A DNA stretch of 64,000 nucleotides from Caldifarciminota bacterium (GTDB lineage: Bacteria > Hydrothermota > Hydrothermia > UBA1063 > CAJXJZ01): positions 62,001-126,000 of the forward strand of contig JALSNX010000001.1 of NCBI GenBank assembly GCA_026986775.1, written 5' to 3'. Positions 8,958-11,485 of this stretch are shown in pieces. The notes below the pieces were generated by a model. That model saw only the letters and a program-made list of their open reading frames with translations, was not told where the DNA came from and did not search any database. Positions within the stretch are counted from its first letter, which is position 1. Each line of letters begins with the position of its first letter. A program made the translations under genes and the position numbers.

Positions 8958-9182
8958 AAAACACCTCCTGTTTGGGGATAGATAAAAATATATTGTGGGT
9001 GTGAGGCGAAAAGACTGATTGTTATTTGATAAGGATCATCTCAATGCTCCATATTTTGATATACAATGATTTTAAAGCAAATTACATATTTTGTCAAATG
9101 AACGAGTTGCCTCATTAAAAATCTACACGAAAGGTATATCATTGACTCATGATAAAAACTACACGAAACAAGTAAAATACAG

Positions 9183-9228
9183 TACCCTCCTTCTTCTAAT
9201 AAGGGCAACAAAAGGAAGAAGGAGGGTA
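9183..9228. repeat. 14-bp perfect inverted repeat
   Basis: TACCCTCCTTCTTC at 9183-9196 and GAAGAAGGAGGGTA at 9215-9228 are exact reverse complements separated by 18 nt. No T run follows on either strand, so it is not a typical intrinsic terminator. The purine/pyrimidine asymmetry of the arms and the position beside the cassette suggest an element edge or an RNA hairpin. Confidence 0.6.
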
Positions 9229-9271
9229 AGATTATATTCACAAAGGAGTTCTGTATTATGAGCAGAAAAAA

Positions 9272-9354
9272 GATAACGTCTGGCGAACATATGAAGTTTG
9301 CCTGTAGGAATAAATTTAGACAGAGCGAAGTGTGAGCGTATGTTCGCTGTTATC
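9272..9354 (-). repeat. attC-like imperfect palindrome after the nuclease gene
   Basis: The outer arms begin GATAACGTCTGGCGAACATA at 9272 and end CGTATGTTCGCTGTTATC at 9337-9354. They pair with a 4-nt bulge, and a roughly 43-nt variable centre lies between them. On the minus strand it starts shortly after the stop codon of the HrgA-like gene and ends ACGTTATC, the same edge as the palindrome on the other side of that gene. The AAC/GTT cores fit integron attC sites, but the RYYYAAC/GTTRRRY consensus is only partly met. Confidence 0.5.
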
Positions 9355-9371
9355 AGGAGGCAAACGTCGCA

Positions 9372-10304
9372 TCATTTCTTTATCCTTTTTATTAACTCTT
9401 CGCTTTCATAAACTTTATCGTATTTTTCTTTTCTAATTTCTTTACTTGAAAGATCTATCTTTATTCTTTTCAAGAATTCCCTAAAATCTGGATTCTCATC
9501 TGCAAGTTTATTCATAGTATCCCAATCTAATTCGCTTTTGTGCTTTGCAGGAAAAATAATCTCCGAAGAATCGGGATTGTCAACATCCAATTTAATAACT
9601 CCTATCCCGAAAGAAGTAGATAATCTTTTAAGTTCATCCATAAATTCATTATCTTTCTTTAGTTCAGCAGCTACAAGGTAACCTTCATTTGCCCATGAAG
9701 AATTAGATACTGCCTGAAAAAATGATTCTCTAAGATTATGAAACCCGAGGTCTTTCTTAATCTCAAAAGAGTATAAGACTATCGCTGAAGAACCAATTTC
9801 TTTTGCAAAATCTATAACTTCATTTTTCCACTCTTCAATCGGGAAATATACTCCTACGATGTCAGGATGAAGCCATTGAGCATATTTTCTTTTACTTGAC
9901 TTTTCATGATGTATTGTTTTGGTATAAACATTCATGTATGTATAAGCAAAATATGTCAGGAACGGATGTAAATCTCGTTCTTTAAATCTTAATTTCTTGG
10001 AAGGTTCTATTTTGCCTTTTTCTTCCGCTTCTATCTTTTCCAATTCATCCTTTGAACCAAGAGTTTTTAGAAAAAATCTTTTAGGCTTAGAATCTATTTT
10101 AACGAAAGGCGAATCGGGGTTGTCCCTTATATCCACATATATCTGTGCGCCAATTGTCCTCCAGGGCGTTTTTCCCCGAGTGCCACATAATTTATCATAT
10201 CCTTTTTTTATTGCTATATTCCATATCTCTTCCGGAGTAAGAGGTTTCCTTTCTTCCTCAATAATTTTTTGTGCCAATTCTTTAAAAGTAAGTTGTTTTG
10301 CCAT
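9372..10304 (-). CDS. HrgA-like restriction-type nuclease (HARE-HTH plus PD-(D/E)XK)
   Basis: A 310-residue protein. Residues 1-80 are a HARE-HTH winged helix (TFKELAQKIIEE, LTPEEIWNIA, GKTPWRTIGAQIYVDI), a DNA-binding module seen in type II restriction enzymes. Residues 105-300 contain a likely PD-(D/E)XK nuclease core, with HPDIVGVYFPIEEW supplying the acidic residue and YSFEIKK the ExK. The layout matches HrgA/COG2958 proteins, some linked to restriction-modification. No methyltransferase gene is adjacent. GGGAAGG precedes the ATG. The gene lies exactly between two attC-like palindromes and looks like a captured cassette. Confidence 0.7.
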   Translation of the reverse strand: MAKQLTFKELAQKIIEEERKPLTPEEIWNIAIKKGYDKLCGTRGKTPWRTIGAQIYVDIRDNPDSPFVKIDSKPKRFFLKTLGSKDELEKIEAEEKGKIEPSKKLRFKERDLHPFLTYFAYTYMNVYTKTIHHEKSSKRKYAQWLHPDIVGVYFPIEEWKNEVIDFAKEIGSSAIVLYSFEIKKDLGFHNLRESFFQAVSNSSWANEGYLVAAELKKDNEFMDELKRLSTSFGIGVIKLDVDNPDSSEIIFPAKHKSELDWDTMNKLADENPDFREFLKRIKIDLSSKEIRKEKYDKVYESEELIKRIKK

Positions 10305-10339
10305 AATATAACCTTCCCTTTTTCTTTTGTTTGCTTTCT

Positions 10340-10404
10340 GATAACGTTGGACGGGTATCTAAACGAAGGTGATAGCCGAAGTAAAATACCCGCTTGTTGT
10401 CCAA
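10340..10404 (-). repeat. attC-like imperfect palindrome before the nuclease gene
   Basis: TTGGACGGGTAT (10347-10358) pairs with ATACCCG (10386-10392) and GTCCAA (10399-10404), leaving a CTTGTT bulge in one arm as attC folds do. The left edge reads GATAACGTTGGAC, which contains a perfect GTTRRRY core (GTTGGAC) and shares GATAACGT, in the same orientation, with the palindrome at 9272. The nuclease start codon is about 40 bp away, the spacing usual for cassette genes. Confidence 0.55.
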
Positions 10405-10463: not shown

Positions 10464-10808
10464 TCATTCTTTCAGCTCCTCCAATATCTTTTCAAATTTG
10501 GGTTTGAGAGGTGGAATCTCCTTTTCTATGACTCCCCATACAATTTCCAAATCAACGCCGTGATACTCATGAATCAACTTATCTCTCATGCCCGCAATGT
10601 ACTTCCATGGAATTTCTGGGTATTTGTTTCTGATTTCTATGGGAATTTTCTTCGCAGCCTCGCCCATCACTTCCAGACTTCTAATCACAGCATTTACAGT
10701 TTTTCTATCCTTTACGAACTCTTCAAAGTCCATACCCTTGATGAACTCCTCAATTTCCTGAATAGACAACAAGATGTCCAGTGCGTAATCTATGTATGTC
10801 CTTTCCAT
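10464..10808 (-). CDS. hepT: HepT-type HEPN toxin (DUF86)
   Basis: A 114-residue HEPN-domain protein of the DUF86 family. The motif RDKLIHEYHGVD carries RX4HXY, the RNase motif whose Tyr is AMPylated by the partner antitoxin in characterised HepT-MntA pairs. The gene overlaps the MNT gene by 19 bp and follows it, the standard order. Together they form a toxin-antitoxin module; the toxin is expected to cleave RNA when the antitoxin is lost. It lies inside the accessory island, 60 bp from an attC-like site. Confidence 0.88.
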   Translation of the reverse strand: MERTYIDYALDILLSIQEIEEFIKGMDFEEFVKDRKTVNAVIRSLEVMGEAAKKIPIEIRNKYPEIPWKYIAGMRDKLIHEYHGVDLEIVWGVIEKEIPPLKPKFEKILEELKE

Positions 10809-11101
10809 ACTGTTACAACCTCTTTAAGGATATACTTTCCAATATGGGGCTTGAGGGCTTTTTTAGATACAAGGTCTACTTTTCTGCCTATTAAATGGCT
10901 CAGATATTCCTCTAATTCAAGAAATTTAAAGAATCCTATAGGCTTTTCAAATTCAACCAGTATGTCAATATCGCTATCTTCCCTTGCTTCTTCTCTCACA
11001 AAAGAACCAAAAATACCAATTTCTTTAACACCATACTTTTCTTTAAGCTCTTCTTTGTGTCTTTTTATAATTTCTTTTATCTCATCAAGTGATTTTTTCA
11101 T
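10790..11101 (-). CDS. mntA: MntA-type minimal nucleotidyltransferase antitoxin
   Basis: A 103-residue minimal nucleotidyltransferase. The active site is visible as GIFGSFVREEAREDSDIDILVEF: GSF, then the DxD pair, followed by a third acidic residue in the KVDLVS strand. In the HEPN-MNT family it neutralises the toxin by transferring AMP to the Tyr of its RX4HXY motif. It precedes and overlaps hepT, so the two are translated together. Confidence 0.88.
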   Translation of the reverse strand: MKKSLDEIKEIIKRHKEELKEKYGVKEIGIFGSFVREEAREDSDIDILVEFEKPIGFFKFLELEEYLSHLIGRKVDLVSKKALKPHIGKYILKEVVTVWKGHT

Positions 11102-11389: not shown

Positions 11390-11485
11390 GCGTTGTTTTA
11401 CCATAAAAAAATTTCAGTATATGGTGCACAGTGCTTATTATTCCGTGTGACTATTCAAAACCATAAAAACGGGGAGCAACAACGC
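11390..11485. repeat. wide inverted repeat, possible decayed attC-like site
   Basis: GCGTTGTT (11390-11397) and AACAACGC (11478-11485) are exact 8-bp reverse complements about 80 bp apart. Nested inside are two ACCATAAAA copies in direct orientation. The spacing and GTT/AAC arms recall the attC-like elements nearby, but the match is short and may be chance. Confidence 0.25.

Follow-up and report, generated by a model that had tools for sequence, protein, structure and literature searches.

In the window, by which we mean the whole 64-kb stretch of contig C1 that was analysed, one gene for a 310-aa HrgA-like nuclease with a HARE-HTH domain (PF05066) and a PD-(D/E)XK catalytic motif (9372..10304, minus strand) lies between two hairpin-forming palindromes. 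Site B (9272-9354, minus strand) is an attC-like hairpin at the cassette 3' end, with R'' at 9349-9354 and the R' core at 9272-9277, and reads GATAAC-GTCTG-GCGAACATA...TATGTTCGC-T-GTTATC. Site A (10340-10402, minus strand), the attC-like hairpin of the upstream unit, provides the R' with which the nuclease cassette starts, and reads GATAAC-GTTGGA-CGGGTAT...ATACCCG-CTT-GTTGTC. Both have the edge GATAACGT, face the same way and contain an asymmetric bulge, so that the two same-edge, same-orientation, bulged palindromes around exactly one gene, on which a preliminary description of this DNA had drawn attention, are indeed present.

Read along the minus strand, the unit begins with the site A top-strand core GTTATCAG, and the order is crossover GTT, 40 bp, ATG, the nuclease gene, stop codon, 17 bp and the hairpin; the start had been placed about 40 bp from one palindrome and the stop close to the other, and the distances are 40 bp to the site A crossover and 17 bp to site B. 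The cassette unit that we infer, bounded by two G^TT crossovers, spans 1068 bp (9277..10344, minus strand). An open reading frame held tightly between sites of the same orientation is the layout of an integron cassette or CALIN, and the gene-cassette arrangement proposed earlier is thus supported.

The sites contain the AAC/GTT core triplets, and their boxes (GTTATCA, GTTATCT, TGATAAC and GGACAAC) fall outside the full RYYYAAC/GTTRRRY consensus, as had been remarked; GTTATNN is found in genuine attC sites. At both sites a C precedes GTT, as in most attCs (PMC2727003). Six T residues follow site B on the minus strand, while site A has no T run. A genome-wide search for further copies of this palindrome type gave none besides sites A and B, and GATAACGT was rejected as a genome-wide marker: the octamer occurs 40 times, less often than its reversed control, and such palindromes stand at two occurrences only. 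No credible match was found in Rfam, none to sites A and B by blastn against plasmids, and none to a B-like pattern in IMG/VR; an A-like pattern gave two IMG/VR matches lacking hairpin context, which were taken as chance.

Complementary ends and strand bias

In an integron cassette, the attC R'' pairs with the R' that begins its own cassette, because both meet in the circle. At the locus, the inverted repeat GTTATCAGGAGGCAAAC at one cassette end (9349..9365, plus strand) is complementary in 15 of 17 positions to its second copy at the cassette 5' end (10329..10345, plus strand). As a benchmark we took 30 pairs of adjacent genuine attCs, drawn from IMG/VR integrons, from phages and from this phylum; in 25 of the 30, R'' fits its own cassette start better than the following R', the fit to the own start being usually 8/8 and the mean match 7.7/8 against 5.9. 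In the window unit R'' matches its own start in 8/8 positions and the following R' in 6/8, and over 17 nt it has 15 matches, more than the 9-14 counted in 23 genuine cassettes. The two positions that do not match form G-T pairs on the bottom strand, so the circle form would be a nearly unbroken stem.

The bottom strand is the more stable in all three folds: -22.7 versus -15.8 kcal/mol (top) for the circle form, -13.6 versus -8.4 kcal/mol for site B, and -6.0 versus -4.7 kcal/mol for site A. Site B has nine perfect L-stem pairs. The extra bases lie on the R''-L'' arm and consist of a 3-nt bulge and single bases, not of the canonical single G.

The chance expectation was estimated with a hairpin scan for AAC..GTT 45-150 nt apart with paired R arms and paired L arms. 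Site B is the top-ranked such hairpin in the 64 kb, with 0.15 expected per shuffle at its score (20 dinucleotide shuffles); site A, at a score of 14.95, is not significant alone (3.4 expected, four seen; 20 dinucleotide shuffles). The composite motif of hairpin plus complementary ends occurs once in the window, compared with 0.017 times per shuffle in 60 shuffles, a value that serves as a guide and not as a formal probability, since the thresholds were chosen after the sites had been seen. The direct scan for this motif covered the window, the rest of C1 and small genome pieces; none was found in the 153.5 kb of C1 outside the window, and the same thresholds detect the motif at 7 of 11 loci that contain genuine integron arrays.

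Comparison with attC covariance models

We built two covariance models, R1 from 17 attCs of class 1, Shewanella and IMG/VR integrons, and R2 from 27 sites found in this phylum. Genuine attC scores are mostly 17-57 bits, and R1 recovers genuine sites outside its training set, at about 14-31 bits for Vibrio and 21-44 bits for this phylum. With R1, site A scores 4.1 bits and site B is not listed; with R2, site A reaches 5.1 and site B 3.4 bits, each on the expected strand and in the proper register, and R2 searched against the genome gave no match at E 5. The attC score that had been proposed as a check is therefore lacking with both models. Of the three outcomes named beforehand as refuting a cassette, this one and the lack of other palindromes of the type were obtained. 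They fail because the central spacers are asymmetric, with 1-3 nt in one and 5-6 nt in the other where about 5 nt would be expected for both, and because there is no standard L box with a single extrahelical G.

The earlier attribution to attC holds in part: the cores, the apparent strand bias, the crossover position and the complementary ends agree with it, whereas neither covariance model recognises either site. The sites cannot be filed as canonical attC, and the proposal that the unit behaves as a cassette is unaffected by this. Since they are too unusual for the models tried, such cassettes may escape model-based searches.

Junction with an insertion sequence

Site B is joined to the left part of a multicopy insertion sequence (IS) of the DDE/rve transposase family (9104..9277, plus strand; 93-97% identity to eight contig ends). 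The fragment holds the IS left end, a 14-bp hairpin (9183-9228), the ribosome-binding site and the first codons, and is truncated exactly at GATAAC; the rve domain was identified in a relative's transposase. The IS has about eight copies and breaks the assembly at contig ends. Copies of this element, whose rve transposase is distantly IS481-like, were seen at the ends of C1, C3, C4, C12, C16, C19, C20 and C22; the left ends mostly follow TGTCAA, and the assembly breaks just past the perfect 14-bp hairpin in the 5' leader. Two other contig ends are CRISPR-like (L115, G000:C5; L117, G000:C7), with regular repeats of about 30 nt at about 65-nt spacing.

Identity to the intact IS copy at C20 ends at 9277: the window is the same through GATAAC and then enters site B, while the intact copy continues ATGAGCAGAAAAAAGATAACATTATTATAC. 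On the minus strand, window and intact IS agree through GTTATC and then diverge, which places the putative crossover between site B and the IS at G^TT (9276..9277); on the cassette top strand the junction is G^TTATCTTTTTTC. G^TT is the position at which the integron integrase cuts at secondary sites (PMC10127599), and the window offers a single junction of this kind. Neither the IS right end nor the remainder of the transposase was found in the window; thus either a deletion followed the insertion, or the DNA in between was lost when the array end recombined with the IS, and the window, where the other IS half is missing, gives no direct support to a simple insertion into the IS. A k-mer assembly join is unlikely, as the 6 bp of common sequence are too short.

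Genes carried by the cassette and by its neighbour

The N-terminal HARE-HTH of the nuclease was recognised at residues 6-74 (PF05066, 3.4e-18). In its C-terminal part P147-D148...E181-x-K183 are invariant in six homologues and follow the PD-(D/E)XK pattern, which supports the restriction-type nuclease of the preliminary description; judged from its family, the protein is probably a host-defence restriction enzyme. Searches against PADLOC and NCBIfam gave no match, and a single-sequence structure prediction (pLDDT 43) was too poor for use. HrgA proteins of Helicobacter, Vibrio and Shewanella plasmids agree with the window protein in the PD-(D/E)XK C-terminal half, where the motif residues are identical; the window protein differs from them in its N-terminal HARE-HTH, a domain also present in the Leptospira homologue, the one homologue checked against Pfam.

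The best relatives are scattered, from a Hodarchaeota MAG (58%) and a Leptospira plasmid (56%) to Persicobacter and the HrgA proteins, one of which is encoded on a Vibrio plasmid, close to a gene for type I restriction. The gene was not found in the other three genomes of the genus, and among the other 146 genomes of the phylum there is no full-length relative, the one weak match covering the HTH domain only; the gene is therefore not the fixed chromosomal segment that would have spoken against a cassette. No attC was found in the flanks of the Hodarchaeota (L057), Leptospira (L106) and Persicobacter (L107) homologues. The flanking ABC permease has no orthologue in the genus (29% at best).

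The upstream unit, which ends at site A, contains genes for a HepT-like RNase toxin (10464..10808, minus strand; PF01934, 9.8e-32) and an MntA-like nucleotidyltransferase antitoxin (10790..11101, minus strand; PF01909, 2e-18; NF047752, 6.5e-15, below cut-off). The HepT-like gene probably belongs to an upstream cassette. The expected start of that cassette, GTTGTCCAAG, was not found within 3 kb, which points either to truncation of the cassette or to an altered border. An inverted repeat, GCGTTGTT...AACAACGC (11390-11485), lies between MntA and the following gene; its polarity is opposite to that of an attC, and it may be a remnant border.

Integrase and cassette arrays in the phylum

The integron integrase model TIGR02249 gave two weak matches in the genome, the best at 73 bits against a cut-off of 265, and both are XerC/D-like proteins beside ordinary genes. 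No IntI gene above the cut-off was found in this assembly, which is 98% complete, so the locus is not part of a complete integron and the orphan, CALIN-like state suggested earlier agrees with the genome. The same holds for the phylum, where none of 147 genomes has an IntI above the TIGR02249 cut-off; the best matches resemble Xer recombinases and mostly have an additional N-terminal part. In L095-L100, L102 and L104 these match the integrase model at 107-134 bits per segment, below the cut-off, and the extra part in most of them carries a GH(R/K/H)WHP..KYW.FP-like motif.

Model-recognised attCs are present in 19 of the 147 phylum genomes, several as arrays of 2-3 with genes filling the gaps. 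With no IntI above the cut-off, these attCs make an integrase acting in trans, or since lost, plausible. In archaeal MAGs no other form is as common as the orphan array, and in bacteria orphan arrays outnumber complete integrons (PMC9668308). In the genus-mate G001, contig C309 carries an attC array with an HSDR_N nuclease and an FRG protein; this MAG is 8% contaminated and C309 is only 3 kb long, so that the membership of C309 in the genus is not certain. Arrays with no visible integrase were seen at L170/L179 (G001:C309), L157/L175 (G079:C130), L159, L164, L166 and L168, with restriction-type, FRG and methyltransferase genes as cargo.

Discussion

We consider 9277-10344 (minus strand) to be most likely an integron-type cassette in the orphan state, with attC sites of a non-canonical form, and joined to an IS through a secondary site. 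Such a cassette would comprise one gene and, behind it, a recombination site with a single-stranded fold. In the circle, the two cassette ends would pair into a long bottom-strand hairpin, with a predicted junction joining CAGACG to TTATCAGAAAG. An integron integrase, either provided in trans or lost in the meantime, would cut the folded bottom strand between the A and the C of AAC, which corresponds to G^TT on the top strand, and the cut end would be joined to another site. What is left of the array would derive from two or more cassettes, among them HepT/MntA with site A and the nuclease with site B, and the array end may have become attached, at G^TT, to a secondary site within the IS transposase gene, either by integration or by a deletion that took the rest of the IS. 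On this reading the junction records a probable off-target integrase event in an IS.

Integron cassettes and CALINs (PMC2727003, PMC9024848, PMC9668308) share with this unit one gene with one folding site, AAC/GTT cores, a G^TT crossover, an apparent bottom-strand bias, an R'' complementary to the own cassette start, and orphan arrays that lack intI and are common in MAGs. In contrast to integron attC, the window sites go unrecognised by the models built here, have an asymmetric central spacer (1-3 versus 5-6 nt) and no L'' extrahelical G, and their GTTATC falls outside GTTRRRY. The canonical arrays G001:C309 and G079:C130 come from the same phylum, that of G001 apparently from the same genus too; AACAAGCGGGT of site A recurs in a canonical attC of G001, whose array also has defence-type cargo (HSDR_N, FRG), but the attCs of these arrays score 23-44 bits. 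IntI recombination at secondary sites (PMC10127599) likewise produces a junction at a lone GTT in unrelated DNA, although in the present case there is a single visible junction and no integrase.

What is chiefly in doubt is which enzyme uses the sites, a known integron integrase or some other recombinase. It is unlikely that they represent an undescribed class of single-strand-folding cassette sites, outside the attC models and served by a recombinase other than known IntI; were this so, cassette-style gene capture would extend beyond recognised integrons. We also give little credence to a cassette-like unit moved by another recombinase of folded single strands, Xer-type or a tyrosine recombinase so far unknown, that acts on a separate class of hairpin sites. 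Such an enzyme would account for circle logic and crossover being those of an integron while the sites lie outside both attC models, and for a genome with XerC/D-like proteins only and no IntI. However, the G^TT crossover, the C before GTT and the bottom-strand bias are integron features, site A has AACAAGCGGGT in common with a canonical G001 attC, and the scan of genome pieces gave no further such units and hence no sign of a dedicated system.

The remaining alternatives are much weaker. That the palindromes are transcription terminators, or chance palindromes beside a truncated IS, is very improbable: T6 follows site B on the minus strand and site A alone is not significant, yet site B is missing from the output of a terminator scan, no T run accompanies site A, the composite motif is rare in shuffled sequence and the IS break coincides with the palindrome edge. 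We hardly credit an IS200/IS605-like non-autonomous element, with two subterminal hairpins, a passenger gene and mobilisation by a Y1 transposase after GATAAC; two hairpins of the same orientation, each starting with GATAAC, and an insertion past a short fixed sequence recall such elements, but site A lies outside the unit with complementary ends, cassettes are built with one hairpin each, and complementary ends are unexpected for IS605 ends. Equally remote is an ordinary canonical CALIN with attC sites decayed by mutation, since, although orphan arrays can decay where no integrase is present and site A retains AACAAGCGGGT of the genus attC, neither the perfect L stem of site B nor the 15/17 match of the ends is expected from decay.

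If the reading as an orphan integron-type cassette is right, attC searches that depend on models overlook some of the existing cassettes, and these could be found without any model by looking for units whose two ends are complementary. It would also place restriction and toxin-antitoxin cassettes in a phylum that has arrays but no integrase at the curated cut-off.
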